A DNA stretch of 45,887 nt from a virus: the IMG/VR virus record IMGVR_UViG_3300035698_018734, positions 1 to 45,887 of that record. One strand, given 5' to 3'. The notes below the pieces were generated by a model, which worked only from the letters and a program-made list of their open reading frames with translations, was not told the origin of the DNA and searched no databases. Both the position numbers and the translations under genes were made by a program. Shown piece after piece: positions 4,317 through 45,887 of the stretch. Within the stretch, counting starts at the first letter, position 1, and every line of letters starts with the position of its first letter.

Positions 4317-4321
4317 TTTTT

Positions 4322-13649: not shown

Positions 13650-13667
13650 TTACATAATAGGATATAT

Positions 13668-15575: not shown

Positions 15576-15612
15576 TAAGTACGATATAGTATAAAATGGA
15601 GAATTTAGGATA

Positions 15613-16769: not shown

Positions 16770-16778
16770 TTTTAAAAC

Positions 16779-18082: not shown

Positions 18083-18117
18083 AGGAAAAAAGCCCCTTTA
18101 TAGCGAAATTTTAGTTA

Positions 18118-18903
18118 ATGGGCGAAATATGGAACATATTAGAAAAGGAATTGTCTTCCTATGGTTTTAAACTATTAGGAGGAGGCAATTGTGAATTCTA
18201 TACTGCTGATGGGCAACAAGTTACATCAACTATACAAAATGCCCTTAAATCTATTAACAACGATATAACAGATAATAAAAATTTATTTTCTTCACTTTGG
18301 CAAGATGCATCTTCACTCATATCTCAAATTAATAATGAACTATCTTGTACAGATGAAAAAACTACAAAATTATTTATTAATTCATTAAAAGATATGGTAG
18401 ATCTTTTACTTTGTTTTAATGGATTAGAAGAAACAAAACTATATCAGACTTTTTATGAAGCTATACAAAAAGATATAAATGATTTTAGCAATAAACAAAT
18501 AGAACACTTACCTGATTATAAGATATCTATTGATTGGGTTCATAGATTGATAGAAAAACTACTTTATATTAGTAGATTACTTAAATGTGCGTTAATGGAT
18601 ATTAAACAAGTAGAATCATTAGGTATTAAAATTGCAAGAAATATAAGTGGTCCATGGGCTAATATGGATTTAGCCAACAGAGAACGAGTATGGGGCTGGT
18701 GGGAAGAAGACTCTAATTTCCGTGGCAGAGATAAAGATATAAGAGATCAAAGAAGATATAGGAAAGGTTTAGAAAACTATAATAATGATGGGAGAGTTGG
18801 GGAGGGACACTATTGGAGGGAAATTAGAAACGAACCTTTTAGTTGGTATAACCGCAAAGACGATGATCCTTACCCACATAGATACTTATTAACAAGGAAT
18901 TAA
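18118..18903 (+). CDS. hypothetical protein, 261 aa
   Basis: No family recognised. It has a helical N-terminal two thirds with regularly spaced Leu/Ile and a C-terminal Arg/Trp/Tyr-rich segment (ERVWGWWEEDSNFRGRDKD and later YWREIRNEPFSWYNRK). Such aromatic-basic tails are seen in structural proteins, but nothing specific can be assigned. The start ATG has no clear Shine-Dalgarno; the gap from the previous gene is 35 bases. Confidence 0.6.
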   Translation: MGEIWNILEKELSSYGFKLLGGGNCEFYTADGQQVTSTIQNALKSINNDITDNKNLFSSLWQDASSLISQINNELSCTDEKTTKLFINSLKDMVDLLLCFNGLEETKLYQTFYEAIQKDINDFSNKQIEHLPDYKISIDWVHRLIEKLLYISRLLKCALMDIKQVESLGIKIARNISGPWANMDLANRERVWGWWEEDSNFRGRDKDIRDQRRYRKGLENYNNDGRVGEGHYWREIRNEPFSWYNRKDDDPYPHRYLLTRN

Positions 18904-18967
18904 TGCTTAAAATTTAGTTTCAAATTTTTCAATATTGACGAAGGAAATTAAGACAAGGAATTAAATT

Positions 18968-19387
18968 GTGGATTTTCAACAACCTTCATTAGCAGATTAT
19001 CTTATACGAATAATGCCTGATTTGAAAATTACTCAAAAACAAGGTATTGATCCAATTGCCGCTAAAGAATTATTTTCTATGTGGAATAGTTCTAATCGTA
19101 AAAACAGTAATAAAATATACAAAAGACCCAATACTGTTTCATTATATCAATTAGAAAGAATGAAAAAATCTGGACTTATTAAATTAGTAGGAGATGATGT
19201 CGAAATTACAGATAAAGGAGCTTCTGTATTAAAAGTTATGGTTTTAGGTGATGAAAATTGTATATTTGATAGAGAAGAAGGCACGATAGATTATGAAGTT
19301 GCTTTATCAAAATCAAAAGAACCATTAAAAACAGCAAAGAGAATATCTAAAAATGCATCTAATTTGTGGTGGAACAGGTTTGAATAA
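18968..19387 (+). CDS. hypothetical protein with possible winged-helix pattern
   Basis: It starts at a GTG with an AAGGAA 7 bases upstream; there is no suitable ATG. Residues about 50-92 (PNTVSLYQLERMKKSGLIKL, then VEITDKGASVLKVMVL) follow the helix-turn-helix-wing pattern of winged-helix domains, where a recognition helix is followed by a two-strand wing. The rest is hydrophilic. It could be a structural adaptor rather than a regulator, since it lies inside the morphogenesis cluster. One-base overlap with the next start. Confidence 0.55.
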   Translation: MDFQQPSLADYLIRIMPDLKITQKQGIDPIAAKELFSMWNSSNRKNSNKIYKRPNTVSLYQLERMKKSGLIKLVGDDVEITDKGASVLKVMVLGDENCIFDREEGTIDYEVALSKSKEPLKTAKRISKNASNLWWNRFE

Positions 19388-19770
19388 TGTCTTTAATATA
19401 TGTAAAACATCCAGAAATAACAAGTAGAATAAAACAAAAAGTTGAACGTCAAATACTTTGGTATGATGTTGAAAAGAAAAAAATGCTTAAATTTTTCGGA
19501 GGCAAACTATCTTTCAAAAATAAATATGATATGTCTATTAATCCACCAAGATATAGACTATTACCATATGTAGAAGATCATGAAGAATATATACAACAAA
19601 AAATAGTAGATAAAGAAGTAATTGAAAAATGGCTCATAAATGGTTCAATTGATTTGGTTGAAATAAATAATAAAAACGATAAATCTATTACTATATTAAT
19701 TGATGATGATGATTTAGATGATGCAATAGATGAATTAGATAGATATAATCTCATATATGAGGTATTATAG
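19387..19770 (+). CDS. hypothetical protein, 127 aa, acidic C-terminus
   Basis: No family recognised. It has a basic N-terminal half (IKQKVERQILWYDVEKKKML) and a very acidic C-terminal stretch (ILIDDDDLDDAIDELDRYN). It is coupled to both neighbours: TAATG at its start and a TAG sharing its G with the GTG start of the next gene. A TAA follows two codons after its TAG stop. Confidence 0.6.
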   Translation: MSLIYVKHPEITSRIKQKVERQILWYDVEKKKMLKFFGGKLSFKNKYDMSINPPRYRLLPYVEDHEEYIQQKIVDKEVIEKWLINGSIDLVEINNKNDKSITILIDDDDLDDAIDELDRYNLIYEVL

Positions 19771-20657
19771 TGTTAACAGTAGAAATAGCAGATACACCTA
19801 CAAGTCATGCTCATGGCTTAATGTTTAGGAAATCTATACCTGAAGATAATGGTATGGCTTTTTTATTTGCTAATTCAGATAAACTTAGATTTTGGGGAGT
19901 TAATACATTTATTAATCTTGATATAGCTTTTGTTTCTAAAGATATGAAAGTAGCTGAAATTAAAACAATAAAAGCAGGATCTTCTAGTGTAGTAGTTTCT
20001 GAAAAGAAATGCAATATGGCTATAGAAGCTAATCTTGGATTTTTTGAAAAACGGAATATACATATTGGAGATATTGTTGAATTTGATAGATTAACGGATA
20101 AATCAGGATATATAAATTTTAAAAAAGAAAGCACAACAGACAAGTACAGTCAAAATACTGGTGGTTTTGAGTTATTAGACCCAAAACAAAATTTTCATGG
20201 TTTTGAACAAAATAATGAAGATAATGTAGATAATCTTCCTATCATAACACCTGATGATTTAAATAATATTTTAGAAGATTATCAAAATAAAGATCAAGAT
20301 GAAGAACAAAATCAAGATCAAGATATAGATATAGAAAGACAAATTCAAGAAATATCTCAAGAACCACGTATTGAATTACCAGAAAAAGATTATCCAGAAT
20401 TTTCTACAGCTTATGATGCTATACGCTGGGGTGAAGAAAATAATGAAGTTATACATATCTGGTATACAACTAAAAAAGGTATAGATCTAGAGAGAGATAT
20501 AGAACCACATGGACAATTTTTAGCAGAAACTACCGGAAACCAGATATTAGTAACTTTTGATCAACAATTTGGTATTAGAGCTTTTATATTAAATAATATA
20601 ATGAATTATCAATTTATAGGTGAAAAGTTTAAACCTAAATTTATTGTTAAACAATAA
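19770..20657 (+). CDS. DUF192 domain fused to a WYL-like domain
   Basis: Residues 1-110 match DUF192: a strand, then SHAHGLMFRKSIPEDNGMAF (family: GLM.R..L.....M.F), FWGVNTFINLDIAFVSKDMK (family: fwM.nt.i.LDiiFid), a GS turn and a closing FFEKRNIHIGDIVEF. DUF192 proteins are small periplasmic or secreted proteins of unknown biochemical role. After an acidic disordered linker (about 130-190), residues 205-290 resemble a WYL domain: AIRWGEENNEVIHIWYTTKK, an R-D-I-E-P-H-G strand, and IRAFILNNIMNYQFIGEKF. WYL domains bind nucleic acids or nucleotides as regulators. A GTG start is used, overlapping the previous stop. The combination is unusual. Confidence 0.7.
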   Translation: MLTVEIADTPTSHAHGLMFRKSIPEDNGMAFLFANSDKLRFWGVNTFINLDIAFVSKDMKVAEIKTIKAGSSSVVVSEKKCNMAIEANLGFFEKRNIHIGDIVEFDRLTDKSGYINFKKESTTDKYSQNTGGFELLDPKQNFHGFEQNNEDNVDNLPIITPDDLNNILEDYQNKDQDEEQNQDQDIDIERQIQEISQEPRIELPEKDYPEFSTAYDAIRWGEENNEVIHIWYTTKKGIDLERDIEPHGQFLAETTGNQILVTFDQQFGIRAFILNNIMNYQFIGEKFKPKFIVKQ

Positions 20658-20698
20658 TTTTTAAAGGATATATAAAGAGATATAAAGAAAAATTACTT

Positions 20699-22852
20699 AT
20701 GCGTAAAGTTATAGCTCAAACTGATTATAATGCGAGTCCTATACAAACTCCTTCTCCAACACCGGCAGATGTAGCTGGCTTGGTTAATCCTGAAGTGTCA
20801 AATGAAGGAGCACAAGATATGATGACTAATGTTGATATTGGTATGTCAGTAACTGATGAAGCAAGAGAACAAGCAATTATTTTTTTTGAACATTCTTTAC
20901 AAGAATTACCAGCAGCAGATAGACAACGACCTTATATCACAGATTTATTAAGTCGTTTAAATACACAAGTTCCTATTAGTGCCGCAGAAGTAGATCATAT
21001 GCAAAAGATTATAGAAGATAATTTAAATCCTACTATTAATGAATTAATGGATATGCCAACTGATAATATGGAAGACGATATTCCATCTATAGTAACAGAT
21101 AACACTATGAACTCTATTTCAGATAATAGAACAAAAAAAGGAAAATATTCGATGGTTGATATCATAGAGTCTTTAACTAATTTAGCAGATGAATTAGATA
21201 AAAATAATTTGTCTAAATTTGCAGATAAAATTGATCAAATTTCTCACAATACTTTACGAATTAAAACAGCCCAATATGTAGGGTCTCAGGGCTATTTAAT
21301 GAGGAATACTCGTTGTTGGCAAAACTGTTACCGTCAAAAAAGAACAGAAAATCCAGATAAAGCAGCACAGAATGTTTGGACTGAGTGTCACGAAGAATAT
21401 TTAGAATCAATTAATAATGATGAAAGTAATTGGAATAAATATGCTGATGGAATACCAGAGATAAAAACGGCATCTAATGAATCTAAAAAAATTCTTAAAA
21501 TAGAGAAAAAGTATTTTCATACAAATTTAGCATCTAAAATAAAAACAGGACAACCTGTTGGTCCGGCTGTTTTTGATACTATTAATGCTGCTCAGGAAAG
21601 ATATGTATCAGCTATTATAAAAAACGCTACGGAAGTAGCAGATATAGCTGAGAAATTAAAGAATTCTGGTTATAATGATTTAGCAAAACATACTTCTGTT
21701 ATAGCAGAACAAATTATCAAAGAAGCTCAATTTTTAGGAGGAATTACAAACCCAAAAGGATTAGGTGGAAGATTGAAAGAATGGTGGCAACAATCTAGTC
21801 TCCCTGGATCAGGTAATGCGTCACCAGAAATGATGCGAAACAAATTGACCAGTATGTTACAAAAAGCGTTAGCTCTTCGTACACGTTTTCCTACAGACCC
21901 GAATGTACAGATTACGGATCAAACTGTATTAAAAGCTACAACAGATACATATAAAGAGTTAATGACCACTTTACAACCAGAAATTCAAAAACTTTATAAT
22001 ATGTCATTAAATAATCCAGAATCTGGTGCATTATATCAAGCATCATTCCCAATTATACAGAATTTTGTCAATTGGACAGCAGAAGATACAAAACAATATC
22101 AGACCAATGCACTTCCATATTTAAAATCCAAAGTAGATGCTTTAGCAACAGGACTGTCTTCAGCACTTTCCGGTGTACCTATCCAGTCTCAAAATGATTC
22201 TCAAGAAGCACAAACTGAAATAAGTAATTTAGAAGATTCTGCTCGTCATAATAAAGCACTTCGGGGGGAAGAATCTGCTCAGTGGAGAGATACTTATGAA
22301 AGTTTAAATAATCCGACTAGAATATATGGAACCATACCGGAAGATGTTGAAGGTTCAGCAAAAGTATTAGGTGATTGGGCTGCTAGTAATTCCCCGGTTT
22401 TAAGAGGACCACAACGTCAGGCTTTAATTGATGTTTTACAATATTTAAAAAACCAAAATTATCAAGCTAAAAATAGAGCAGCATCAACAGGTAAAAATAA
22501 TATAATATTAAAAACAGCTCAAGAGGATGTTTTACCAAACACAGAACAAGGTGGAACTTTACAAAATATTCAAGTTAATCCTCAAACTGGTCAGCAAGGG
22601 AATATACAAAGCAATACCCCAACCATGACAAGACGAGAAGGAATGGCAATAGAAATTTTAAATACATGGTTTAATAGATTTTCAAGTAGACTCATGCCAG
22701 CCATGGGTACTATTAGATTTAATGCCTTTCAAGACGTACTTCAATGGCTGACAATGGCAGCACAAGCAACTGGTTCTCAGAATGATACAATGACAAACTT
22801 ATCATCTTATAAACCAAATAGATTAATGAGAAAAATAAAAAAGGGATTTTAA
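20699..22852 (+). CDS. large hypothetical head-cluster protein, 717 aa
   Basis: No family recognised. It is mostly helical with Gln/Asn-rich linkers. A Cys-containing patch near residues 200-235 (RNTRCWQNCYRQ and VWTECHEEYLES) may be a small metal or disulphide unit. K-x-A-Q peptides occur at the N-terminus (MRKVIAQTDY), near residue 190 (IKTAQYVG), near 343 (IKEAQFLG) and near 603 (LKTAQEDV), dividing the chain into segments. Length and location between the terminase and portal suggest an internal head or neck protein. It ends with a basic RLMRKIKKGF. A 40-base gap precedes it, with a weak ribosome site. Confidence 0.65.
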   Translation: MRKVIAQTDYNASPIQTPSPTPADVAGLVNPEVSNEGAQDMMTNVDIGMSVTDEAREQAIIFFEHSLQELPAADRQRPYITDLLSRLNTQVPISAAEVDHMQKIIEDNLNPTINELMDMPTDNMEDDIPSIVTDNTMNSISDNRTKKGKYSMVDIIESLTNLADELDKNNLSKFADKIDQISHNTLRIKTAQYVGSQGYLMRNTRCWQNCYRQKRTENPDKAAQNVWTECHEEYLESINNDESNWNKYADGIPEIKTASNESKKILKIEKKYFHTNLASKIKTGQPVGPAVFDTINAAQERYVSAIIKNATEVADIAEKLKNSGYNDLAKHTSVIAEQIIKEAQFLGGITNPKGLGGRLKEWWQQSSLPGSGNASPEMMRNKLTSMLQKALALRTRFPTDPNVQITDQTVLKATTDTYKELMTTLQPEIQKLYNMSLNNPESGALYQASFPIIQNFVNWTAEDTKQYQTNALPYLKSKVDALATGLSSALSGVPIQSQNDSQEAQTEISNLEDSARHNKALRGEESAQWRDTYESLNNPTRIYGTIPEDVEGSAKVLGDWAASNSPVLRGPQRQALIDVLQYLKNQNYQAKNRAASTGKNNIILKTAQEDVLPNTEQGGTLQNIQVNPQTGQQGNIQSNTPTMTRREGMAIEILNTWFNRFSSRLMPAMGTIRFNAFQDVLQWLTMAAQATGSQNDTMTNLSSYKPNRLMRKIKKGF

Positions 22853-22910
22853 CGTAAGTTTATTATAATATAGAATTAAGGTATCTTACCATTACAAAGG
22901 AGAAACCATA

Positions 22911-23510
22911 ATGGTGAAGTTTTATTCGAACTACATTCCGACCGGAAAGGTCAAGCCGTTTACACAGATTATCGAAGATATGCGCAAAAAGCAAGAAGTT
23001 AAGGTCGCATCTGTTGATGAAAAGATGACAAAACAAGCTGAAACTAGCAATGAAGGTTCTGAATCTAAAAAAGAACCGGATGAAGCTGAAGGCAGTGGAC
23101 AACTTGAAGTTGAACCGCTACATCAAGTAGGTGAGTCTACTCCAAGTCCTCATAAGGGAAAAGAAGAAGAAACTAAAGTCGAAACTAAAGCCGAAACTGA
23201 AGTCGAAGTTGAAATTGAAGCTGGAACTGAAGTTGAAGTTAAAGTTGCTGAAGATGTAAAAGATACAGATAATGAGAACAAAGATGAAGCTGATTCAAGT
23301 GGACAACCAGAATGGGAAGGTAAACAGGAAAATGTTAACGACCCAGAAGCAGGTAAACAGCAAGCAAAAGAAGACAATAAAGAAGCTACTAGTGAAACTA
23401 GATTTGTCAAAATCGCTAATTTAGATGAAAAAAGTAAATCATGGTTACGCCAGTATTGGAGCAACCTGTATCCAGCAGCTTATGTTGATGCGATGCTAGC
23501 CGATAAATAA
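22911..23510 (+). CDS. acidic low-complexity protein, 199 aa (scaffold-like)
   Basis: It has a short basic N-terminus (YSNYIPTGKVKPFTQIIEDM), a long Glu/Lys/Thr/Val repeat core at about residues 80-120 (units such as TKVETKAETEVEVEIEAG), and an ordered C-terminus with aromatic residues (SWLRQYWSNLYPAAYVDAML). An acidic disordered body with a folded end is typical of scaffolding or internal head proteins. It has a strong ribosome site (AAAGGAGA), and its codons are less AT-rich than its neighbours', as in the capsid and decoration genes, suggesting high expression. KVASVDEK and KIANLDEK recall the K-x-A motif seen elsewhere. Confidence 0.65.
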   Translation: MVKFYSNYIPTGKVKPFTQIIEDMRKKQEVKVASVDEKMTKQAETSNEGSESKKEPDEAEGSGQLEVEPLHQVGESTPSPHKGKEEETKVETKAETEVEVEIEAGTEVEVKVAEDVKDTDNENKDEADSSGQPEWEGKQENVNDPEAGKQQAKEDNKEATSETRFVKIANLDEKSKSWLRQYWSNLYPAAYVDAMLADK

Positions 23511-23552
23511 GGTTTTTTAGCTTGTCTTTCTTAAATTATAAGGAGCATATAT

Positions 23553-24209
23553 ATGGCCCTTGTACCTGTGGGTAAAAGGAAAATTATGGTTGCGCAGCGT
23601 TTTGATGACGCTAATGATATGTTACAGAACACTAATATTGGTGATGGTATTGATCCAAACCAAATAGATATGTTGGACCAAAACAATCAAATGTCAGAAC
23701 CAGAACCAGAACCAGAACCAGAACAAAACGATACAAACGAACCTAATTTAACACAATATATATCAGAATTCCTTGTATCTTTAGGTTATCCTCATAGACG
23801 TTTACAAGAATTTAAATCTCAATTTGTTGAAGAAACTGGTTCTGCTGGCGGTTCTAGAGAAATAACAATTACTATTCCTGATCAGGTTTATGGAAAAGAT
23901 GTTACTATACCTATGGATAAACTTAAAAGTTTGGTAAAAGGTGCAGAAGAGAAATTTTCTTTATATTTTGAAAACTATAAAAGATCAGATCAAAAAGTAA
24001 TATTAAATTTTATTTCAGCAGAACAAAAACAAAAAGCTGATGCAGAAACAAATGCACCTGGAGATATCCTTGATAAGGTTTATAGTCATCCGTCAAAAGG
24101 AAACGAACAAGGTCACCGATCCGCATCAACTATTCGCGAACTAATTAAAGAGAATAATACTAACGTAGTAGGTCGATTAATTAAATTATTGGAGAAAAAA
24201 CATGGTTGA
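23553..24209 (+). CDS. hypothetical protein, 218 aa, Glu-Pro repeat
   Basis: No family recognised. The N-terminus contains KIMVAQRFDDAND (K-x-x-A-Q type motif), followed by a tetrameric Glu-Pro repeat (EPEPEPEPEQ, near residue 50) and a folded part with a helix, a beta hairpin (REITITIPDQVYGKDVTIPM) and further helices. Strong ribosome site (AAGGAG). It overlaps the next gene by eight bases (ATGGTTGA). Confidence 0.6.
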   Translation: MALVPVGKRKIMVAQRFDDANDMLQNTNIGDGIDPNQIDMLDQNNQMSEPEPEPEPEQNDTNEPNLTQYISEFLVSLGYPHRRLQEFKSQFVEETGSAGGSREITITIPDQVYGKDVTIPMDKLKSLVKGAEEKFSLYFENYKRSDQKVILNFISAEQKQKADAETNAPGDILDKVYSHPSKGNEQGHRSASTIRELIKENNTNVVGRLIKLLEKKHG

Positions 24210-24975
24210 TAGAGTAGATAAAGAAAACGAAATAGATTTTCTCAATATTGATTATGGGAAATTAGATGCAGAAATTAATGAACTTAAAAAAGCAAGAGAG
24301 GATAAACCAATAGAGCAAATAAGATTGGCTAAACAAACTACTGGTAATATGTATTCTCATAAACTTCAAAGTCAAATACCGTTTCTGGAAAAAAATTCTG
24401 TACCAGAACCTGAAAAGAAAATAGAAAAACCAGTTGAGTTAAAATCAACAAATAAGTTAAATAATAATTTCTCAGATAATCCTCATCTTACTAGCAAAAG
24501 CGTTATGTCTGCTCGTAGTGGTACTATATCAGATATGGGTGGTCCTAATAGACATATGAAAACAGATAGTTCTAACTCAATATGGGATTCTGAAAAAATA
24601 CAACGAAATGCTATTAGTACAGGTAAAGGAATAAAGAGTGAACGAGAAATAAGAGCAGAACAAAAAAAATCTATGAGAGATGAACGTACAAACGAAATTG
24701 TTGAATCATTAAAAAATGTAGATCAAAGAAAAGATTCTATTGTTTCTCCAATGGCAGAATATCAGGGTTCACGCTATAAAACTCCACAAAATGCTTTAAG
24801 TATATTTGATACTAAAGAATTTGGTAGATTAGCAGAAAAGACACAAGGTGAACAAACTACTGAGAATAAAAAGAAATTAGCAAAAGAAAAACAACAAGAA
24901 ACACGTATTAATCACAAACAATCAACACAGAATATAACAAGTAAGCTTTTTGATAATCTCTTTGGAGTAGAATGA
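24202..24975 (+). CDS. hypothetical protein, 257 aa, hydrophilic
   Basis: No family recognised. It is a very hydrophilic Lys/Gln/Asn/Ser-rich chain, probably largely disordered, with a helical start (NIDYGKLDAEINELKKARED). No Cys, no membrane segments. Overlaps on both sides (eight bases with the preceding gene, ATGA with the next) make it part of one translational unit with the acidic and zinc-ribbon proteins around it. Confidence 0.6.
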   Translation: MVDRVDKENEIDFLNIDYGKLDAEINELKKAREDKPIEQIRLAKQTTGNMYSHKLQSQIPFLEKNSVPEPEKKIEKPVELKSTNKLNNNFSDNPHLTSKSVMSARSGTISDMGGPNRHMKTDSSNSIWDSEKIQRNAISTGKGIKSEREIRAEQKKSMRDERTNEIVESLKNVDQRKDSIVSPMAEYQGSRYKTPQNALSIFDTKEFGRLAEKTQGEQTTENKKKLAKEKQQETRINHKQSTQNITSKLFDNLFGVE

Positions 24976-26906
24976 TTAAAAAATTTAATTTAAAAAAAGC
25001 TCAGTTTGAAGCACCAGTTGTTAATCAACCTCCAGAAGGAACTCAAGGTATGCCTGATTTCTATTCTGAAAACCCATTAGCAGAACAAATGGGACAAGAA
25101 CAAGAAGAACAAGTAGGGCAAGAATTAATTAAATTTATTGATGCTGCTGAATTACATGAATTTCTTAAAAATAACGATTATACAACAGTAAGAGAGTTTT
25201 TTAGTGAAAATAATATAGGTGGTGATGAATTGTCAGATATTGATGAACCACTAAAAAGATATTATGAAAACCAAGAAGGATTAACAGAAGAACAACAATT
25301 AGAAGATTCAGTAATTATATTTAATTTACTACCTACAGAATTTAAAAAGCAAAGGGATGATGAAGATGTTGTTGTCCCTGGGAAATTCAAGGAATTTGCA
25401 AATATGAATAACGAGTATATAAAGAAAATTAACTCAGAAATTAAAAAACTTGCTGAGAAAAGTATAGCTAATAGGAAAAATAAAGTATTTAATGTAAATA
25501 AATTTGCTCAGCAAAAAACAGAAGAAAATATTATTATGTGGGGACCAGATGAAAAAAGAATTGATCCATTCTATCGCCAACCTGTTTCTGATTGGCATAT
25601 TTTAGAAAGAAACAAAGGCGTTGGTCAAGATATTGATGGTGTCTGGGATATCGATTGGGAAGCAGTTTGGCGTGGTAATATCATGGATAAATACAGCAGA
25701 CCATATCGTGATACAAAAACAGGAGAATGGATTGGCGGATATATACAAAAAAGATTTGAAGTAGATAAATGGATTCCTGAAACAAATAATTATCAATTAT
25801 TACCCGGACAAAAACGTAAACCTCGCCTTCCAGAACAAGGAGTGTTGGAAGGTCGCTTACAAGCTATGAGAGAAAAAAATGATCGAGGATACGGTCCAGA
25901 TACGAATACAAGCGAACCGTTTAATTGGAATACAGCAAAAAATAAAAAGAATATTAAAACAGCACAATTTGAAACATCCATACCTATTACTCCTGAAGTA
26001 GAACAAGGAATGCAACAAGAATATGATTTTTCTGAAAATGAAACAAAGATATCTAGATCAGCAAAAGCAACTGTAAAAACCAGATTTTTAACTATTATGG
26101 ATAATCCACAGTCTGCTAAAGAATTTAAAAGAGTCTATGATATAAGTCCAACTGTAGCTGCAATTCAAATGCTTAAATTAGATCCACAAAATGTTGAATT
26201 TTCAGATATGAAAACATATATGACACAGTTGTATAAAGATATGTTCCATGGATCTATTGAAGAACAGCAACCCGAATTGGGTGCAGTAGCTATGGTAGAA
26301 CCTATTCGTCGTTCACTTGAATACCAGGCAAAAGATAAAAAAAAAAGTAATGCCGGTATAAACGGAATTAAAGAAATAGGTAGACCTCACTCTGATCCGT
26401 TTGAAATCAAACCAATTAAAATTCACCCAGATGACAATGATAAACCAATGAGTGGTATCTATCGTTGTCCTTTTTGTGGCGCAAATATAAATCAAAACGA
26501 AACTAAATGCCATGATTGCGGTATGGATATTAATGCTGCAAATTCTTGGACAGGCGAATTCTTCCCACAACAAGCATTGCCGAAAAAAACCAAAACACCT
26601 TCTCCTAATAAAAATATCAGGTTGAATGAAAATAAAAAAGAAATAATATTTAATTCTCAGAAAAAAACTTATCAAGTTGAAGCAAATCATGATGAAGAAA
26701 ATGATATAGATGCAATAGAAAAAAGAAAAGATAAACATCCAGATTTTAAAGAATCACCACATCGAAAATTTAAATCAAAAGAATTTAAACAAATAAGACT
26801 TGTTACTCCCTCAGAACCATCTGATGAATTTGACGATAAAAGTAAAGACGCACGATGGGGAGAACAAGTTCAACAATCTTGGTCGGATCTTGCTGGCGAT
26901 GAATAG
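24972..26906 (+). CDS. zinc-ribbon head protein carrying a copy of the capsid N-arm motif
   Basis: Unknown family, 644 residues. Features in order: N-terminal FNLKKAQFEAP motif; acidic helical region; a WGPDEKR / VWDIDWEAVWRGN segment near 190-240; a second KTAQF near residue 330; helices; then near residues 440-453 the string AMVEPIRRSLEYQA, identical over 14 residues to residues 33-46 of the major capsid protein; then YRCPFCGANI and TKCHDCGMDI, a zinc ribbon near 495-520; and a charged tail. The shared segment is encoded by different synonymous codons, so the protein sequence is what is conserved. It may contact or mimic the capsid subunit during assembly. It starts with an ATGA overlap and ends in TAG. 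Confidence 0.7.
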   Translation: MIKKFNLKKAQFEAPVVNQPPEGTQGMPDFYSENPLAEQMGQEQEEQVGQELIKFIDAAELHEFLKNNDYTTVREFFSENNIGGDELSDIDEPLKRYYENQEGLTEEQQLEDSVIIFNLLPTEFKKQRDDEDVVVPGKFKEFANMNNEYIKKINSEIKKLAEKSIANRKNKVFNVNKFAQQKTEENIIMWGPDEKRIDPFYRQPVSDWHILERNKGVGQDIDGVWDIDWEAVWRGNIMDKYSRPYRDTKTGEWIGGYIQKRFEVDKWIPETNNYQLLPGQKRKPRLPEQGVLEGRLQAMREKNDRGYGPDTNTSEPFNWNTAKNKKNIKTAQFETSIPITPEVEQGMQQEYDFSENETKISRSAKATVKTRFLTIMDNPQSAKEFKRVYDISPTVAAIQMLKLDPQNVEFSDMKTYMTQLYKDMFHGSIEEQQPELGAVAMVEPIRRSLEYQAKDKKKSNAGINGIKEIGRPHSDPFEIKPIKIHPDDNDKPMSGIYRCPFCGANINQNETKCHDCGMDINAANSWTGEFFPQQALPKKTKTPSPNKNIRLNENKKEIIFNSQKKTYQVEANHDEENDIDAIEKRKDKHPDFKESPHRKFKSKEFKQIRLVTPSEPSDEFDDKSKDARWGEQVQQSWSDLAGDE

Positions 26907-26979
26907 GATTTGTAATGAATAAAACAAAAGAAATCAGATGAAAACAAAACAAATAAAGATGAGTAATTAGGAAGATTAA

Positions 26980-29900
26980 ATGGCTATATTAAAATTTAAG
27001 ACAAACAATACACCAGCAGTTAATCGTAAATTAGTAGCTTCAACTGGTGGGTATTCTGTAGGTAATGATAGTAAAAGAGCATATGGAGGAGCAGAACTAT
27101 CTTCAACTCCTATAACTAAAACAGCACAGTTCTCTGGGTCAGGCGCAAATGTTGTCTTTACACAACCTATGTTCTTTTCACCACTTCATACCCCTCAGAA
27201 CTGGCAAATTGCGAGTAAAAGACGCGAAATTTATCAGTGGGAACTACTTACTGGACAAGGACTTACGCTAAAAGACCATACGATAATACATGTAGAGGAC
27301 TTGTTATTCACATCAGATGAAGTTATCAAAGATACTGTAACTGGTGGTAATTTGTTTGAGAACATAAACTGCGAACCAGTTTTCGGTTCTAAAGGAAAAT
27401 TCACTTGTCCAACTCGTTTTTTTGAACGAGATTCAGAAAACAAAAGATGTTTTAGATTAGGTGCATATGGTTATTGGAGAGACCTGGAAATATCAGAGGA
27501 ACATCCTGTTTATGTTCTTGATGGAAAATTATATCGCCGGAAAAAGAAAGTAGAATTAGGTGCAAAATCTCGTCGTAAAAAAGGCATTAAATCTAACGGC
27601 GTCAAAAAAGTAAGTTTTCCAGATAAATTAATATCTAAAAAAGAAGCTCAAGATGTAGATGTTAAAGATTTTCTATTATATCCTGTACCAGGTGTTGGCG
27701 TAAAATCTATTAATTATGATTTAGCGTGGTCAATAGGTTTGTGCATAGCAGATGGTTGTATATCAAACAAAACTCCAGGTATGGAACATGTTTGCTTTAC
27801 TTATGATATTAAAGAAAAAGCATTATATAATGATAATATTATTCCAGTATTAGATAAAACCTCTCCAACAAGTATAATTAATAAAAAACACGGAGAAGGT
27901 AAGGGTTTTCGATCAACAATATGGGGAGAAGAATGCTGTAACTTATACAGCGAATATATCACCGGCAAAAGAACAAAGAAAAAATTTACTTCTTCTGTAT
28001 TTGATCTTGACAAAGAATCTAGATTACAAATATTGGGTGGTTATTTTGATGGTGACGGTCATTTTAATCCTGTAGAGTTAAAACTTATTGCGAATAATTA
28101 TTCTTGTGATATGGCAGATCAACTATATGCTTTATTGTTATCTGTTGGTATCAATTGTTCGTTGAAGCGTTATCCGCTTTATGGTGAGTATTTTGCAACA
28201 GATTCTGAATGGTGTTACAGAATATTTATTCCATCTTCAGAGGTATATAAGTTACGTCCATACATGCGTAGTAACAAAATACCTGATGGGATTAAGACTA
28301 AAAAAGAACGTCAACTCCGCTTTTTCTATGAAGAAGATGGAGTACAATATTTAGCTCAACCGATTGGCAAAAAAGAAGAATTCTTTTATACTGGTAAAGG
28401 ATATGATTTACAAATAGATCCTGAACGAGCATTTGTTGCATCAGGTTTTGTTATTTCTAATTGCAGATTTTATTATGAAAACGAACCAAAGGTCGCTGCT
28501 GGTGTGGATATGTATTGTTTTACGCCGGAAACTCCGGTTTTAACTTCAGATGGAACTCAAAAATCTATATCAAGTATTATTGTAGGAGACAGAGTACGTT
28601 GCCACGACGGAAGTGTTGGAATTGTAGAAAAAACCCATATACGACAAGCTAATAATGAAATAATGTTGCGTATTCGTATTTCTGGAATTAATCAAGACAC
28701 GTTAAAATGTACTGAAGGGCATGAAATATTAGTATTAAAGAAAGGTGACAAAGAACCACAATGGATTCAGTCTTCTCAAATTGAAAAAGGAGATTTTTTA
28801 GCAACTCCGTGTAATTATGAGAATCAAGTAGATAAAAAACATGATCATGATGATAAGTATATATTTCGTAAAGTTATTTATGTAAAATCGTTTAAATATA
28901 CAGGTGAGCTTTTTGATTTAACAGTAAGTGGTACTCATACCTATGTTGCTAACCGAATTGCTGTGCATAATTCGCAATTTCCGATGAATGGATTCAAATT
29001 AGAATGTAGCAATAAAAGTATACTAGAGTATTATGAAAACATATCAGAAGATTTAGATTTACCTGAATGGTTAGATTATATAAGTCACGAATATTTTATG
29101 TTAGGAGATGTTTTTCCTTTCTTAGAAATTAAATGTCCACACTGTGGTGGTTCTGGAATTGATCGTGATACGCAGGAACAATGTAATCACCCTGATGGTA
29201 GTTTTGGATCTATTCGTGTTATGAATCCGGACTATATAGAAGTTCAGGATAACATTTTAGCTGATGAATCTGTTATAGCTCTCATGCCTGATGAAGAACT
29301 TCAAATGTTAATTCAAAGGCGAGAGCCAAAACAGATATTTGATAAACTTCCAACAAACATTGTAAATCTTGTAGCTAATGGGCGTCCTATATTATTATCT
29401 AATAGATCTGTTAGTCATATTAAACATAATGCTAGTGGATATAGTACATATGGTACATCTTTATTAAGACGTTTATTTACTGTTTTAGCGTATAAAACAA
29501 AAATTATGACGGCAAACTGGATTGTTGCTGAAAGAATGATATTACCTGTTCGTGTTGTTAAGGTTGGTGATAAAGATCGTCCAGCTACTCCAGAAGATAT
29601 CCAAGACGTTGTAAATCAAATTGCTGCTGTTGTTAATGATCCTAACTTAACAATAGTTACGCATCATGCATTTGATTATGAGTATTACGGACCTACTGGA
29701 AAAATTCATAATATTGCACCAGAAATAGAACAAATAGGTAAAGAAATTCTTGATGGTTTAATGTTAAATCAAGCCATTTTAAATGGTGAGATGTCTTCGT
29801 ACAACTCGGCCGCTGTAGGTATAGAAGTTTTGATTCGTCGTATAGATAACTGGCGAAACAAACTAAAAAAATGGGTAGAAAAAAGAATCTTTTTACCTAT

Positions 29901-30924
29901 AGCTATGATGCAAGGTTTTGTTGACGAAAAGAAAACACAAAGAACAGGTAAAACACAATATTTGTATCCTAAATTAAAATGGAATGATTTAAATCTGAGA
30001 GATAATTCACAGAAAGTACAGTTGCTTATGCAAATGCATGACAAGGGTATGGTTTCAACACAAGAAATTCTTGAAGAAATGAATCTTGATTATGATGATC
30101 AAATAGAAAAAATGAGAGAAGAAACATTGTTAGCTTCTCAATCTGGACAGATTATGCCCGGTGGGGGTGCAGGTGGCGGTCCTATGGGAGCAGCAGGTAT
30201 GGGCGGAATGGGAATGGATATGGGTGGTATGGGTGGTCCTCCACCTGGTGATCCAAGTATGGGCGGTATGCCAGGAGGAGACATGGGTGGTGGTATGCCA
30301 GGCGGTGACATAGGTGGTATGCCAGGAGGATCTCCTGGCGGTATGCCTGGTGCTCCGATGGCGAGTGCTCAACCTCAAATGAAAATAACTAAACGAGGAA
30401 AAGGTTCAAAACAAGAAGATCAGCCAGTACAACCTCCAAAGCAAATTAAATTAACTACTCTTGAAGGAAAGATGTATCGTGCTCTTGAGGCTATGAATAT
30501 GCCATATGCTTTATATGGGCAATATACGGTAAGGTTACCGGGACAAAAACAACCTTTTGTTCTTGATTTTGCTTATCCTGAAATAGGTATCGGAATTGAA
30601 TCAGATGGTCAGATATGGCATGAAAGAGAGGATCTCAAACAAAGAGATCAAATGCGAGATCAAAAATTAGCTAATGTAGGTTGGCGTATTTTAAGATTTA
30701 ATGAAGATGCTATCAATCAGCATATAGATGTTATATCTGATATTGTTTATAAACATATTCAAGAAGCATCAAAGAATATGAAGAAAAAATCGAGTGATGA
30801 AGAAAATATTAAGATAGCAGCAATAAGAGAAGTGATATCTAATACTTCTTCAGGAGAGGAATTATGCTTCAATATACAGGATATGGATAATAACTTAGGT
30901 TATTGTATATCAATAGGAAAATAA
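26980..30924 (+). CDS. portal protein with two inteins and a C-terminal DUF559/Vsr-like nuclease domain
   Basis: Forms the dodecameric DNA gateway at one vertex and docks the terminase. The exteins read ...RREIYQW + CRFYYENEPKVAAGVDMY + SQFPMNGFKLEC..., then a HISHNASGYSTYGTSLLRR-like segment and RIDNWRNKLKKWVEKRIFLP, as in large-phage portals. Inteins occupy residues 88-494 and 513-664; the spliced product is about 755 residues. A small CPHCGG...CNHP site lies after the inteins. After a Gly/Met-rich linker (about 1060-1130), residues about 1160-1262 fit the DUF559/Vsr-like nuclease fold: FVLDFAYPEIGIGIESDGQI, WHEREDLKQRDQMRDQKL, GWRILRFNEDAI. KTAQF occurs at residues 47-51. RBS AGGAAG. Confidence 0.9.
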   Translation: MAILKFKTNNTPAVNRKLVASTGGYSVGNDSKRAYGGAELSSTPITKTAQFSGSGANVVFTQPMFFSPLHTPQNWQIASKRREIYQWELLTGQGLTLKDHTIIHVEDLLFTSDEVIKDTVTGGNLFENINCEPVFGSKGKFTCPTRFFERDSENKRCFRLGAYGYWRDLEISEEHPVYVLDGKLYRRKKKVELGAKSRRKKGIKSNGVKKVSFPDKLISKKEAQDVDVKDFLLYPVPGVGVKSINYDLAWSIGLCIADGCISNKTPGMEHVCFTYDIKEKALYNDNIIPVLDKTSPTSIINKKHGEGKGFRSTIWGEECCNLYSEYITGKRTKKKFTSSVFDLDKESRLQILGGYFDGDGHFNPVELKLIANNYSCDMADQLYALLLSVGINCSLKRYPLYGEYFATDSEWCYRIFIPSSEVYKLRPYMRSNKIPDGIKTKKERQLRFFYEEDGVQYLAQPIGKKEEFFYTGKGYDLQIDPERAFVASGFVISNCRFYYENEPKVAAGVDMYCFTPETPVLTSDGTQKSISSIIVGDRVRCHDGSVGIVEKTHIRQANNEIMLRIRISGINQDTLKCTEGHEILVLKKGDKEPQWIQSSQIEKGDFLATPCNYENQVDKKHDHDDKYIFRKVIYVKSFKYTGELFDLTVSGTHTYVANRIAVHNSQFPMNGFKLECSNKSILEYYENISEDLDLPEWLDYISHEYFMLGDVFPFLEIKCPHCGGSGIDRDTQEQCNHPDGSFGSIRVMNPDYIEVQDNILADESVIALMPDEELQMLIQRREPKQIFDKLPTNIVNLVANGRPILLSNRSVSHIKHNASGYSTYGTSLLRRLFTVLAYKTKIMTANWIVAERMILPVRVVKVGDKDRPATPEDIQDVVNQIAAVVNDPNLTIVTHHAFDYEYYGPTGKIHNIAPEIEQIGKEILDGLMLNQAILNGEMSSYNSAAVGIEVLIRRIDNWRNKLKKWVEKRIFLPIAMMQGFVDEKKTQRTGKTQYLYPKLKWNDLNLRDNSQKVQLLMQMHDKGMVSTQEILEEMNLDYDDQIEKMREETLLASQSGQIMPGGGAGGGPMGAAGMGGMGMDMGGMGGPPPGDPSMGGMPGGDMGGGMPGGDIGGMPGGSPGGMPGAPMASAQPQMKITKRGKGSKQEDQPVQPPKQIKLTTLEGKMYRALEAMNMPYALYGQYTVRLPGQKQPFVLDFAYPEIGIGIESDGQIWHEREDLKQRDQMRDQKLANVGWRILRFNEDAINQHIDVISDIVYKHIQEASKNMKKKSSDEENIKIAAIREVISNTSSGEELCFNIQDMDNNLGYCISIGK
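27241..28461 (+). mobile_element. intein 1 of the portal, with LAGLIDADG endonuclease, atypical N-terminus
   Basis: A 407-residue insertion between W and C of the conserved portal segment. Block B is seen as LEISEEHPVYV. The homing endonuclease has both LAGLIDADG helices (LAWSIGLCIADGC and LQILGGYFDGDGH). Blocks F and G read YDLQIDPERAFVASGFVISN, then the extein Cys. The C-terminal Asn and Cys+1 are present, but the first intein residue is Glu rather than Cys, Ser or Ala, and the penultimate His is Ser. This suggests a class 2- or class 3-like mechanism or a defective intein. Boundaries are set by extein continuity. Confidence 0.82.
28516..28971 (+). mobile_element. intein 2 of the portal, 152-aa mini-intein
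   Basis: This is a canonical class 1 intein without an endonuclease. Block A is CFTPETPVLTSDGTQKSISS with Cys1, block B TLKCTEGHEILVL with its His, block F YTGELFDLTVSGTHTYVANR, and block G RIAVHN followed by extein Ser+1. It begins just 18 extein residues after intein 1 ends. At 152 residues it is a typical Hint-only mini-intein and should be able to splice but not to home by itself. Confidence 0.92.
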
Positions 30925-31365
30925 ATGATAAAAGATAAATCTGTATATAATTTATCCAAATCTCTTTATGCTGGACAAAAGAGAATTAAAGATCGTGGTA
31001 TAAACTGGAAAGAGCATTATCACGAAAAATCTGCTGCATTAAAAAAGAAATTTGAAAAGATCATTGGTCCTCAATCGTATATGCGTTGGGAAGGTCATGA
31101 TTATACAACAGATGGTGATTATTTTATTGTTGTTGGTCCTGCTATAACAAAAGATGGACATAAAAGATTCTTTTCAGGTATTAAAAGATATCCTAAAGAT
31201 CCTAAGAAAAAACAATTTGCTCCAAGTGGAGAATACTTCCCAACAATTATTTCTGCTCTTTCTAATGCCAGACAAAAATGGGCGATTCCTTTCCCACAAA
31301 ATCAACCAAATTATGATGAAGCTATTTTGCAACCGTTGAATATACCTAGACACGTTAAGGGATAA
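30925..31365 (+). CDS. hypothetical protein, 146 aa, downstream of portal
   Basis: No family recognised. The start lies immediately after the portal TAA. It has a basic helical N-terminal half (YAGQKRIKDRGINWKEHYHE), then a beta pattern (GDYFIVVGPAITKDGHKRFF), and a Pro-rich end (PFPQNQPNYDEAILQPLNIP). It has no Cys or membrane segment. Its position suggests a small head or portal accessory protein. Confidence 0.6.
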   Translation: MIKDKSVYNLSKSLYAGQKRIKDRGINWKEHYHEKSAALKKKFEKIIGPQSYMRWEGHDYTTDGDYFIVVGPAITKDGHKRFFSGIKRYPKDPKKKQFAPSGEYFPTIISALSNARQKWAIPFPQNQPNYDEAILQPLNIPRHVKG

Positions 31366-38754: not shown

Positions 38755-38772
38755 CCAATAGGAGAATATATA

Positions 38773-38937
38773 ATGGCTTTAGCTAAAAATGGTCTTTCTG
38801 ACCAAGATAAGCAAATGGTGATTGCCCAAGCTCTGGAAACAGAAGAAGGGCGCGTCGCTTTGGCGCAGGCGATGGTTGAGCCCATCCGTCGTTCGCTTGA
38901 ATACCAAGCGGTCGGCAGAAAATTGCTCATGGTGGAT
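38773..38937 (+). CDS. major capsid protein, exon 1 (residues 1-55)
   Basis: Encodes MALAKNGLSDQDKQMVIAQA through VGRKLLMVD, the N-arm of the major capsid protein. It has a strong AGGAGA ribosome site and GC-richer codons than most of the window. Unspliced it would stop at a TGA at 38938-38940. The last three bases, GAT, supply the U required before a group I intron, and splicing joins D55 to ELPQGALARYERD of exon 2, restoring an uninterrupted capsid sequence. Residues 33-46 (AMVEPIRRSLEYQA) recur exactly in the protein at 24972-26906. The spliced protein is 290 residues. Confidence 0.88.
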
Positions 38938-39983
38938 TGACCTAAAAAGCTTGTCCACCTAAACTCGTAAGAGTTTTAATAAAAATCAAACTCATATCGG
39001 GGAAACCTAAGTAAAAATAAGGCAATCCCGAGGGAAGTTTAAAGAATACTCCTAAAGAACTGAAATGGTTAAGAAAACAAAGATAAATTACGAAGAATTA
39101 ATAAGAAAATATGTTGATCTGAATTGGACAACATATGATCTTGCTGAACACTATCAGATTAGCCGTAAAAAGGTATCTTGTCTTCTTAAACAGAATGGCA
39201 CGACAATCAAAAGGTATAAAAGAGCATATTCATTCTTTTATGAACAGTCTTTAACTGAAATTCAAAAAGAATTGCTTTTAGGCTCACTTTTGGGAGATGG
39301 CGGAATTTATCGTCATCATAAAGGACCAAATGGTTGTAGGTTTGTTGAATGTCATGCTATTGCTCAAATTGAATACTTAAATTGGAAAAAATCTATATTG
39401 CAAAATTTTGTCTCACAAAATATCAAAATCATTGATAATACAAATAGTAAATCATATGGTGATACCCCAACATGTGTATTAACTACTGTATTACATAAAG
39501 ATTTCGAACAATTTAGACAAATGTTTTATCCAGATGATATAAAGATTATTCCAAAAAATATTAATTTGACATCTTTAGGTTTAGCAACATGGTTTTATGA
39601 TGACGGCTCTGTTTCAAAAAACGGATCAAACTCATGGTTCGCAAGTTTTCATACTGAAAACTTTGATGAAACATCCATAGAAAATGGTAGACGTATCTTA
39701 AAGAATCAATTTAATCTTGATTCGTTTGTAATTAATGTTAAAAAGAAATATCAAATTATAAGACTTAATAATAAGAATTATCAAAAATTGTTATATCTTA
39801 TAAAAGATTATTCAGTTCCATGTATGGCTTATAAAATTGCGTTTTCTGATAACCCCGTAGAGACTTGCTCTAAAAAGAGCAGAGTGCCAAATCTGAAATG
39901 TTTTGGTGCTAACACGTTTGGCTCCCTTCACCATTAAGGGATGATGGTATAGTCCGTGGCTCCCGAAAGGGATGACCAGATTG
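38938..39983 (+). ncRNA. group I intron in the major capsid gene
   Basis: A self-splicing ribozyme of 1046 bases. P1: exon GGTGGAT (38931-38937) pairs with the guide GTCCACC (38953-38959), with the required U-G wobble at the 5' splice site (U38937-G38953). P10: exon 2 GAGCTT (39984-39989) pairs with AAGCTT (38947-38952) just 5' of the guide. P2: AAACTC-GTAA-GAGTTT at 38961-38976. A core P4/P5 segment reads TCGGGGAAACCTAAG ... TAAGGCAATCCCGA (about 38997-39035). A 3' core GGTATAGTCCGTG (39946-39958) is followed by a TCCC-GAAA-GGGA hairpin (39961-39972) and terminal G39983. An endonuclease gene fills the middle. Confidence 0.92.
39065..39937 (+). CDS. intron-encoded LAGLIDADG homing endonuclease
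   Basis: Cuts intronless capsid alleles so that the intron is copied in; may also act as a maturase. Two LAGLIDADG helices are visible in the 290-residue chain: KELLLGSLLGDGGIY near residue 68-82 and LGLATWFYDDGSVSK near 176-190. An N-terminal helix-turn-helix-like segment (WTTYDLAEHYQISRKKVSCL, about 17-36) may help target binding. The gene lies wholly inside the intron; its 3' end runs close to the catalytic 3' core, and it is much more AT-rich than the capsid exons, indicating separate origin. The start ATG has no strong ribosome site. Confidence 0.88.
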   Translation: MVKKTKINYEELIRKYVDLNWTTYDLAEHYQISRKKVSCLLKQNGTTIKRYKRAYSFFYEQSLTEIQKELLLGSLLGDGGIYRHHKGPNGCRFVECHAIAQIEYLNWKKSILQNFVSQNIKIIDNTNSKSYGDTPTCVLTTVLHKDFEQFRQMFYPDDIKIIPKNINLTSLGLATWFYDDGSVSKNGSNSWFASFHTENFDETSIENGRRILKNQFNLDSFVINVKKKYQIIRLNNKNYQKLLYLIKDYSVPCMAYKIAFSDNPVETCSKKSRVPNLKCFGANTFGSLHH

Positions 39984-40691
39984 GAGCTTCCTCAAGGCGC
40001 TCTCGCTCGCTACGAGCGTGACGTGCTGGCGATTGCACACGTTGTTAGCCGTAGAGGCGCGGTTCCTGATCAAATTCAGGAAGGCGAAGAAATTCTTGTT
40101 CCTACTTTTGAAATTGCTGCGAACCCAACCGTTCGCTTGTCCGAGATTAAGGCTCGTAGATTCTACATCGTAGACCGCGCCCAAATCAAGGCTAAAGAAG
40201 CTATCCAAAAAGAAGAGGACACGAATATTTTTGGTGCTTTAACTGCTGCTGCTAATAACTTGGGTAAACAGGTTATTTTGAGCGTTGGCGCATTGACGAT
40301 TGCTGCTATTAATACCGCCTTCCGCGATATTGAACAGCATGACTTGGTTGCTGCTAAGATCGTTATGCATGCTTTCCAGTATGCTACGGTCAGAACATTC
40401 GGTAAAGATTTTTACGATGAAGCAAGTCAACGTGAAATTATCACAACTGGTCTTTATGGTCACTTGTGGACAGCCGATATCCATGTTTCTTCCAGGCAGA
40501 ACAGTGATGAAGTTCTTGTTGTTGCTTCACCTGAGAATGTGGGTGCATTCCCAATCCGCCAGGACATTACTGTCCTTCCAGCCGACGATCCTAAAAAGTT
40601 GCGCTTGGGCTGGGTGATCTACGAAGAAATTGGTATAGTAGTTGTTAATGACTATGCTATCTCCCTGATTCAGGTAACTACCGCTACCTAA
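39984..40691 (+). CDS. major capsid protein, exon 2 (residues 56-290)
   Basis: Encodes ELPQGALARYERDVLAIAHV and the rest of the HK97-fold-type capsid subunit, including GEEILVPTFEIAANPTVRLS, ARRFYIVDRAQIKAKEAIQK (E-loop/spine-helix region) and the closing GWVIYEEIGIVVVNDYAISL. A bare reading frame could start at ATG 39972 inside the intron, but that would lack the N-arm; splicing after G39983 gives the natural sequence. Codon use is GC-richer than the surroundings, typical of the most highly expressed phage gene. A strong hairpin terminator follows 48 bases after the stop. Confidence 0.88.
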   Translation, partial: ELPQGALARYERDVLAIAHVVSRRGAVPDQIQEGEEILVPTFEIAANPTVRLSEIKARRFYIVDRAQIKAKEAIQKEEDTNIFGALTAAANNLGKQVILSVGALTIAAINTAFRDIEQHDLVAAKIVMHAFQYATVRTFGKDFYDEASQREIITTGLYGHLWTADIHVSSRQNSDEVLVVASPENVGAFPIRQDITVLPADDPKKLRLGWVIYEEIGIVVVNDYAISLIQVTTAT

Positions 40692-44364: not shown

Positions 44365-45222
44365 ATGATTTTTCGTTATCCTGGTGGGAAAAGTAAAAAA
44401 TCTGTTCGAAAACAGATTATGAGTTTATTTCCAGAAAAATATTCTGAATTTAGAGATATTATGGTAGGTGGTGGTGGAATCTTTTTTGCTATTCCAGCAG
44501 AAAAAAAAAGATGGATTAACGATATTGACTGTGATCTTATTTCTGTATATAAGGCATTAAAAGATCGTCCTCAAAAATTTATTGAAGAATGTCGAGCTAT
44601 TAAGTCACAGCAAAAAGACGAACCACTAACATCTGCTCGTCCCGGAGGCAAGGCGTTATATAACGCCAGGTTAAAAGCTGAATTTGATCGTTTTGCAAAG
44701 GGCGGAGACGATATTGACCCTGCTATAAGATATTTGTTTGTAAACAGGACTGTTTGGGCTGGTAGAGTAAATTACGAGCGTAAGTCTCGCATGTATTTTT
44801 CAAATCCGGCTGGATGGAATGTTGTCTTCACAAATCGTATAGAAAATGCTGCGAAACTAATGAATAATGTAAAAGTCACATGTGGCAGTTATCAGGATTT
44901 ATTATTTACTGAAGGTAATGATGTTTTGATATATATTGATCCTCCATATTTTGTAAATACTGGATTAGATCCAAATTCCAGACTTTACAAATACAATTTT
45001 GAGAAAAAAGATCATGACGATCTGTTCTGTGCAGTTAAACAATGTAAACACAAGGTGGTAATTTCTTATGACAACAATCCATATATTAGGAGCTTATATA
45101 AAGGTGACAGGTTCAATTGTACTCCTTTAAAATGGACATATTGCGGGACATCTAGTGTTGTCTCAGACGGTCAAAGTTCTACTAAAAATGTTGGCAAAGA
45201 ATTAGTAATTACTAATTTTTGA
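44365..45222 (+). CDS. dam: DNA adenine methylase (D12 class, Dam-like)
   Basis: Transfers a methyl group from S-adenosylmethionine to adenine N6. Seen: FRYPGGKSK at residues 3-11 (AdoMet-binding motif I of the D12 class), an acidic strand RWINDIDCDLISVYKAL near 49-65, DPPY at 192-195 (catalytic motif IV), and a C-terminal KNVGKELVITNF. At 285 residues it is the usual size. Target recognition cannot be read from sequence; GATC is the commonest for the class. A phage methylase may protect DNA from host restriction or mark packaging. It is preceded by a nested inverted repeat and followed by 118 bases with no convincing gene before the CRISPR array. Confidence 0.9.
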   Translation: MIFRYPGGKSKKSVRKQIMSLFPEKYSEFRDIMVGGGGIFFAIPAEKKRWINDIDCDLISVYKALKDRPQKFIEECRAIKSQQKDEPLTSARPGGKALYNARLKAEFDRFAKGGDDIDPAIRYLFVNRTVWAGRVNYERKSRMYFSNPAGWNVVFTNRIENAAKLMNNVKVTCGSYQDLLFTEGNDVLIYIDPPYFVNTGLDPNSRLYKYNFEKKDHDDLFCAVKQCKHKVVISYDNNPYIRSLYKGDRFNCTPLKWTYCGTSSVVSDGQSSTKNVGKELVITNF

Positions 45223-45340
45223 CACAAATTAAAAGGAATCGTTAAAAATGGAAAATTCTAATATAAAGAGCATAGACATGAGGGCAAGACTTATTGACAG
45301 TATAATAGATATCTAGGTCTATATTTTCATTTTTAGGCAT

Positions 45341-45887
45341 TGTTTAGCCCCGCATTTGCAGGGAATTTACTCATTCGTTTTCACATCCGGTCCACCCCTT
45401 ATATAAGGGGAATATTGGTAGGAACAATCCGACAGTGGGCATCTGCCTGGCCCACCCCGCATTTGCAGGGAATACTCTTTAATACTGTCGGGTGCGATGG
45501 TCTACTCAGGTCCATCCCCGCACATACGGGGAATACTGCTTGTCCTTTTAATACAGGTATGCCAGACTCGGTTCACCCCCGCACATACGGGGAATACTTT
45601 AGCAACTGGATTTAGTCTTTCTATAAACTCGATCCACCCCCGCACATACGGGGAATACAAGATAAGCATTTAAAGCTGCATTTCTTTTCGGTCCACCCCC
45701 GCACATACGGGGAATACGAACAACCACTACATTTACGAGTCTTACTGAGCGGTCCACCCCCGCACATACGGGGAATACCTGAATTCCGCTTTAACCGCCT
45801 GTCAACGGCTCGGTCCACCCCCGCACATACGGGGAATACTGAGTAATCTTCTTTAGGGCGACCCGGACCTAACGGTCCACCCCCGCA
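45341..45887 (-). CRISPR. type I-E-like CRISPR array, degenerate trailer end, running off the window
   Basis: Nine repeats and part of a tenth. The 29-base unit, as written on the plus strand, starts CGGTCCACCCCCGC and ends ACATACGGGGAATAC, with the GC-rich palindrome (CCCCCG/CGGGG) of type I-E repeats. Units start at 45341, 45388, 45448, 45508, 45569, 45630, 45689, 45750, 45811 and 45873. Spacers are mostly 32 bases (one 30, one 33, the first about 20). By comparison with type I-E, crRNA is made from the minus strand, giving a 5' handle GTGGACCG, so the leader lies to the right, outside the window. The leftmost three repeats are degenerate and the next three carry one or two changes, as expected at the old end. 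No cas gene is visible in the window. Confidence 0.95.

Follow-up and report, generated by a model that had tools for sequence, protein, structure and literature searches.

The window, as the whole stretch of DNA analysed here is called, is a virus fragment of 45,887 bp, in which no tRNA genes were found. It contains genes for ribonucleotide reductase, a sigma factor, a dUTPase, a macro-domain protein, NAD synthetase and nicotinamide phosphoribosyltransferase, together with terminase, portal and major capsid protein genes, several homing endonucleases and a Dam-like methylase. A CRISPR array, composed of nine full 29-nt repeats and a tenth, partial one, is located at positions 45340-45887. The features of this end of the window are reported below, where full repeats are numbered R1 to R9 from left to right and spacer lengths are measured intervals.

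39972-40691, plus strand: main exon of the major capsid protein ORF, which anchors the cargo island (phrog_2522, E=1.7e-48; 52% identity to Bacillus phage G)
40926-44099, plus strand: island between capsid gene and methylase, with two homing-endonuclease genes and small unknown ORFs
44365-45222, plus strand: Dam-like adenine methyltransferase gene (phrog_56, E=8.8e-50; 53% identity to a gene in the relative L021)
45223-45339, no strand: AT-rich gap between methylase and array, 28% GC, phage-like, containing a 22-codon ORF
45340, 45387, 45447, 45508, 45569, 45630, 45689, 45750 and 45811, minus strand: starts of the nine full repeats
45340-45368, minus strand: R1, degenerate repeat at the leader-distal end, 11/29 mismatches, 6/6 hairpin pairs kept on this strand
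45369-45386, minus strand: short spacer, 18 nt
45387-45415, minus strand: R2, degenerate repeat with a compensatory hairpin change, G-C to T-A
45416-45446, minus strand: spacer 2, 31 nt
45447-45475, minus strand: R3, degenerate repeat with a stem-loop variant in common with R1
45476-45507, minus strand: spacer 3, 32 nt
45508-45872, minus strand: R4-R9, six near-identical repeats, with spacers of 32, 32, 30, 32, 32 and 33 nt
45873-45887, minus strand: tenth repeat, 15 nt, ended by the contig end

In the intact part of the array the period is 61 nt, and the nine intervals measure, from left to right, 18, 31, 32, 32, 32, 30, 32, 32 and 33 nt; 29-base I-E-type repeats and mostly 32-base spacers had been reported in a preliminary description of this DNA. 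The same description regarded the leftmost repeats as degenerate, which was confirmed by counting mismatches to the consensus: these affect 11, 10 and 8 of the 29 positions in R1, R2 and R3, respectively, and the last three full repeats, R7-R9, are mutually identical. When the whole window was scanned on both strands, allowing up to 12 mismatches, all matches fell within 45340-45840, far above chance, and no comparable repeat was detected in the rest of the window. The array begins 118 bp past the end of the methylase gene and abuts AT-rich phage DNA, in agreement with its previously proposed position. The 22-codon ORF located between methylase and array (45248-45316) is perhaps the remnant of a gene cut by an insertion.

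Read on the minus strand, the repeat is GTATTCCCCGTATGTGCGGGGGTGGACCG, a pattern which we take to be the type I-E repeat motif. In chromosomal I-E arrays, degenerate repeats are found at the leader-distal end. Since the I-E motif and the leftward decay of the repeats agree on direction, the minus strand is taken to be the crRNA strand, and the window holds the leader-distal end of the array. A third, weak cue is provided by the variant found in R1 and R3, which pairs at six of six stem positions as minus-strand RNA and at five of six as plus-strand RNA. Any cas genes, like the leader, would therefore lie to the right of position 45887 and, the cas side being off the contig, the absence of cas genes in the window is no evidence for a cas-less array.

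On the minus strand a Cas6e-type hairpin is present, with pairing in 42 of 42 pair cells across the seven distinct repeats; the 8 nt located 3' of the stem presumably form the crRNA handle, GUGGACCG, a position taken from general I-E biology. Hairpin keeping in R1, R2 and R3 was evaluated by an energy-based test, which gave weak results (fractions of 0.086, 0.19 and 0.073, respectively), by a pair-based test (0.016, 0.022 and 0.044) and by the same pair-based test at equal number of stem changes (0.073, 0.028 and 0.073); in all of them R1 and R3, sharing one variant, are not independent. Within the window alone, hairpin keeping is modest evidence. No Rfam family matched the array at E<=1, an Rfam match being no defining test for I-E. 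Judged by its 29-nt repeats and spacers of about 32 nt, its Cas6e-type hairpin and the similarity of its repeats to those located beside I-E cas genes in another phage record (G051, see below), the array is classified as type I-E-like.

The carrier was identified by homology and gene order. The window capsid protein, in addition to its 52% identity to the phage G protein, is 36% identical to that of a 485-kb uncultured phage, and its use as bait in viral contigs retrieved 106 relatives, 80 of which were kept, the largest contig measuring 547,943 bp; terminase and methylase, used as single-protein baits, retrieved no relatives. The window is syntenic with the relatives G006, G012 and G019. Capsid, terminase and portal homology, combined with synteny, assign the window to a phage-G-like huge phage, of which it would be a fragment. 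The order of genes leading up to the capsid gene, from portal to capsid, is common to the window and its relatives; downstream of it, a region of variable content, with homing endonucleases and changing cargo, is followed in many loci by a conserved block.

Some features of the window genes are reported here for completeness. The capsid gene seems to be split (38757-40691), as homology to relatives ends at 38937 and restarts at 39984; a LAGLIDADG gene (39065-39937) lies between the two parts in what seems an intron-like arrangement. The portal ORF (26980-30924, 1314 aa) includes intein segments (Hint, LAGLIDADG) and a C-terminal DUF559 endonuclease-like domain. On the minus strand, at 3546-5521, the NAD synthetase and nicotinamide phosphoribosyltransferase genes adjoin, with the macro-domain gene nearby, a group which we assume may serve as an NAD-rebuilding counter-defence.

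In G012 and G019, whose synteny with the window extends over the greater part of the latter, the island that follows the capsid gene contains a CRISPR-Cas locus. G012 carries an I-C-like system (L037:13561-20004 and L122:5003-6683) made up of cas5c, cas8c, an extra small cas8c-like ORF, cas7c, cas3 and a 26-repeat array, and the locus occurs twice, in L037 and in L038/G013, from another sample. HD and DEFH motifs are present in the G012 Cas3, while GSGKT was not found by pattern. In G019 (L050) a 12-repeat array, located about 0.9 kb past the capsid gene, is followed by genes coding for a 1137-aa Cas12-like protein and an 819-aa Cas3.

Two distinct arrays were found in the 10 kb that follow the capsid gene, 52 loci extending for at least 4.7 kb in this direction and 38 for at least 9.7 kb; the window array would be the third distinct case. 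With just two distinct arrays, support for the hot spot is limited to a small number of cases, and no P value is given for it, because the site came to notice through inspection of this very region. Among the records searched whole for cas families, scans of entire sequences for arrays covered G006, G012, G019 and G043, and G051 was scanned for I-E-type repeats only; no CRISPR array was seen in G006 (548 kb). In all four array-bearing records of the capsid family that were examined (G012, G019, G043 and G051), cas genes are located beside an array. Whole-record searches of the closer capsid relatives detected the I-E repeat, by pattern, in 0 of 50 records and cas7e in 0 of 50; a search for Cas1 in 50 records, one of them G051, found it in none.

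The array finder also flagged repeats in L008, L020, L030, L031, L033, L040, L071 and several whole-record pieces, which were judged to be coding or simple tandem repeats and discarded on the basis of sequence or position, L008, L020 and L071 being inspected individually. The L008 element (8041-8265) consists of hairpin repeats of about 30 nt, spaced by 60-61 nt, 5 kb downstream of the capsid gene and at the contig end; it was rejected as a CRISPR array by eye, as its intervals resemble one another.

A separate observation concerns the divergent huge phages G019 (L050:11653-18451) and G043 (L133:1414-9225, 476 kb), where a Cas12-like gene and an adjoining Cas3 gene are found beside an array. 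The Cas12-like proteins, of 1137 aa in G019 and 1119 aa in G043, have a RuvC region like that of CasJ19/Cas12X; the Cas3 proteins (819 and 820 aa) are full, with HD and helicase motifs, and are 27% identical over most of their length. To our knowledge, no system combining Cas12 and Cas3 has been described, and this pairing may be the most novel thing met in the analysis.

Searches of the viral contigs for the repeat itself gave no hits with the exact 28-mer of the window repeat and none with a loosened, window-like form, and seven stretches with a general I-E repeat form. Two of the seven belong to G051 (IMGVR_UViG_3300021978_000001, 437,490 bp), a member of the wider capsid family: its capsid protein matches phrog_2522 (E=5.3e-52) and is 36% identical to that of the window, and homologues of the window terminase, portal and ribonucleotide reductase are also present; one Pfam terminase model gave no match in this record. 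On its minus strand, at 13.1-31.2 kb (13103-31211), G051 contains an I-E operon consisting of cas3e, cas7e, cas6e, cas5e and a 725-aa ORF, whose first part matches cas8e and whose last part matches cas11e. Matches to cas5e and cas6e are above the NCBI curated cut-offs, those to cas7e, cas8e and cas11e below theirs, and the latter genes are best described as divergent members of their families. The operon lies far from the G051 capsid gene, at 13-31 kb versus 231 kb.

I-E-type repeats occur 75 times in G051, in 18 places and on one strand, as short arrays between the cas genes and scattered over the record, and differ from the window consensus by 4-11 mismatches. Their hairpin is paired in 394 of 396 cells, against a mean of 375.2 and a maximum of 381 in shuffles, a difference which is overstated, as the pattern used to collect the repeats partly presupposes the stem. 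The leader-distal repeats of several G051 arrays share a CCTTTG-like loop. Elsewhere, the phage contigs L176, L177 and L179 contain one pair each of I-E-like repeats, 61 nt apart, which are possible mini-arrays or RNA anti-CRISPRs.

The view that this is a phage-borne I-E array, put forward in the preliminary description, is supported by the phage-G-like carrier, by the CRISPR loci found past the same capsid gene in G012 and G019, and by the G051 I-E operon with its similar repeats. Whether or not it is served by cas genes of its own, and whether it guides or acts as a decoy, the array is very probably carried by the phage. Because cas genes adjoin the array in G012, G019, G043 and G051, we favour the reading in which it is the edge of a full, phage-encoded I-E system, which we consider probable. 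The window would then hold the leader-distal end of the phage's own I-E-like array, placed in a variable cargo island just past the major capsid gene. Transcription would start from a leader located past the edge of the contig and run leftward, on the minus strand. A Cas6e-type enzyme would then cleave the RNA at every hairpin, so that the crRNAs would retain the 8-nt handle GUGGACCG. An I-E Cascade would take up these crRNAs and recruit Cas3, by which matching DNA would be destroyed. The Cascade genes would most likely be the phage's own, located to the right of the window and lacking Cas1. This reading is opposed by the lack of a leader and of cas genes within the window, by the absence of I-E repeats and cas7e from the 50 closer relatives, by the small number of arrays found past the capsid gene, by the distance between operon and capsid gene in G051 and by the spacer searches, which returned no target.

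Targets would most likely be found in the DNA of rival phages, during co-infection. The proposed check of the spacers against phages and plasmids returned no target, the array giving no spacer match in this search, and the 20-nt cores of two of the nine spacers had no match in the viral contigs. Comparison of eight of the nine spacers with the 205 loci of the analysis, on both strands, similarly revealed no target: the best Hamming distances were 8-11, against 7-12 for a control of one shuffle per spacer, on one strand only, and nothing stands out, the largest gap between spacer and shuffle being that of spacer 8 (9 versus 12).

Alternatively, no cas genes may follow, and the crRNAs would be used by the Cas6e and Cascade of an I-E host in order to exclude rival phages. 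Huge-phage arrays devoid of interference genes and with host-like repeats have been published (PMC7162821), and use of host Cas has been reported for archaeal virus mini-arrays (PMC11656645). Such an array, however, usually shares the repeat of its host, and among one genome per species for 84,980 species the 21-nt core of the window repeat was found in a single stretch of two repeats, in Secundilactobacillus folii; no host carrying the window array was thus found among these genomes. Together with the cas genes found beside the array in all four examined records, this makes an array dependent on the host unlikely.

Another explanation taken into account was an assembly artefact, either a chimera or the misjoining of a host CRISPR locus to the phage contig. 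The contig ends inside a repeat, which is a usual place for assembly breaks, concatenation artefacts have been reported in IMG/VR among large phage genomes (PMC7162821), and no closer phage relative has I-E repeats. The junction itself argues against this explanation: at 45223-45340 no exact word exceeding the background of 13-20 bases, as determined from 30 random stretches, recurs in the window, and in the interval 45100-45450 the longest words that recur belong to the array repeats and to a 17-nt palindrome located where the methylase gene ends. Since the boundary is in unique sequence, a repeat-driven misjoin is unlikely there; moreover, the gap has the phage-like GC content of 28% and relatives carry CRISPR loci at the same place, so that an artefact of this kind seems quite improbable. 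Finally, the repeats could act as RNA anti-CRISPRs (Racrs), titrating host Cas6e/Cas7e instead of guiding, as solitary repeats can inhibit host Cas and I-E Racrs inhibiting an I-E system exist (PMC10651486) and the hairpin is kept in the degenerate repeats, but a Racr is a solitary repeat unit without array, whereas nine full repeats, six of them nearly perfect, and a partial tenth are present here with distinct spacers of about 32 nt, which makes a decoy very hard to credit.

A broader interpretation is offered tentatively, as a possibility. The spot downstream of the capsid gene might be an exchange site for unrelated CRISPR systems lacking Cas1 (I-C-like, Cas12-like with Cas3, and I-E), and the window might belong, with G051, to a phage-specific I-E lineage, whose repeats drift freely, yet keep the Cas6e hairpin, as no Cas1-Cas2 copies fresh repeats in. 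If this were true, relatives of phage G, a major lineage of huge phages, would plug exchangeable CRISPR weapons into a single genomic site, among them I-E, of all types the one studied best. They would also offer a testable system for RNA-guided warfare between phages, and for the upkeep of arrays without spacer-acquisition genes.

All six CRISPR types are said to occur in phages, in work by Al-Shayeb et al. which appeared in Cell in 2022; our literature search, which did not take in that work, found no paper on I-E arrays in phage-G-like phages. Huge phages are reported to carry often compact CRISPR arrays, with Cas1, Cas2 and Cas4 missing in almost all of them, and variant I-C systems have been described among these (Al-Shayeb et al. 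2020, PMC7162821). The window resembles these systems in the huge-phage carrier, the compact array and the lack of Cas1 in its relatives; it differs in that its repeats are of I-E type, adjoin the capsid gene and belong to a phage-G-like lineage, and the term 'type I-E' is absent from the main text of that paper. A landfill survey reports arrays in 454 of 106,368 viral elements, later 450, four having been dropped as false positives (PMC12607003), and no mention of I-E was found in the main texts of PMC12607003 and PMC13037316. Virus-borne mini-arrays (PMC6858448, PMC11656645), some of them able to use host Cas, are similar to the window in being viral arrays without visible cas genes, but are reported with one or two spacers, against at least nine intervals in the window array, which is ended by the contig edge. 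Chromosomal type I-E arrays have the same 29/32 geometry and hairpin, and differ from the window array, which is set in phage DNA. G051 shares with the window the capsid family, I-E-type 29-nt repeats, the 61-nt period and repeat variants preserving the hairpin, and is distinguished by its many arrays in and around the cas operon and by a GC content of 57%. The relatives are a greater surprise than the window itself, whose interest is raised by them and by the hot spot.
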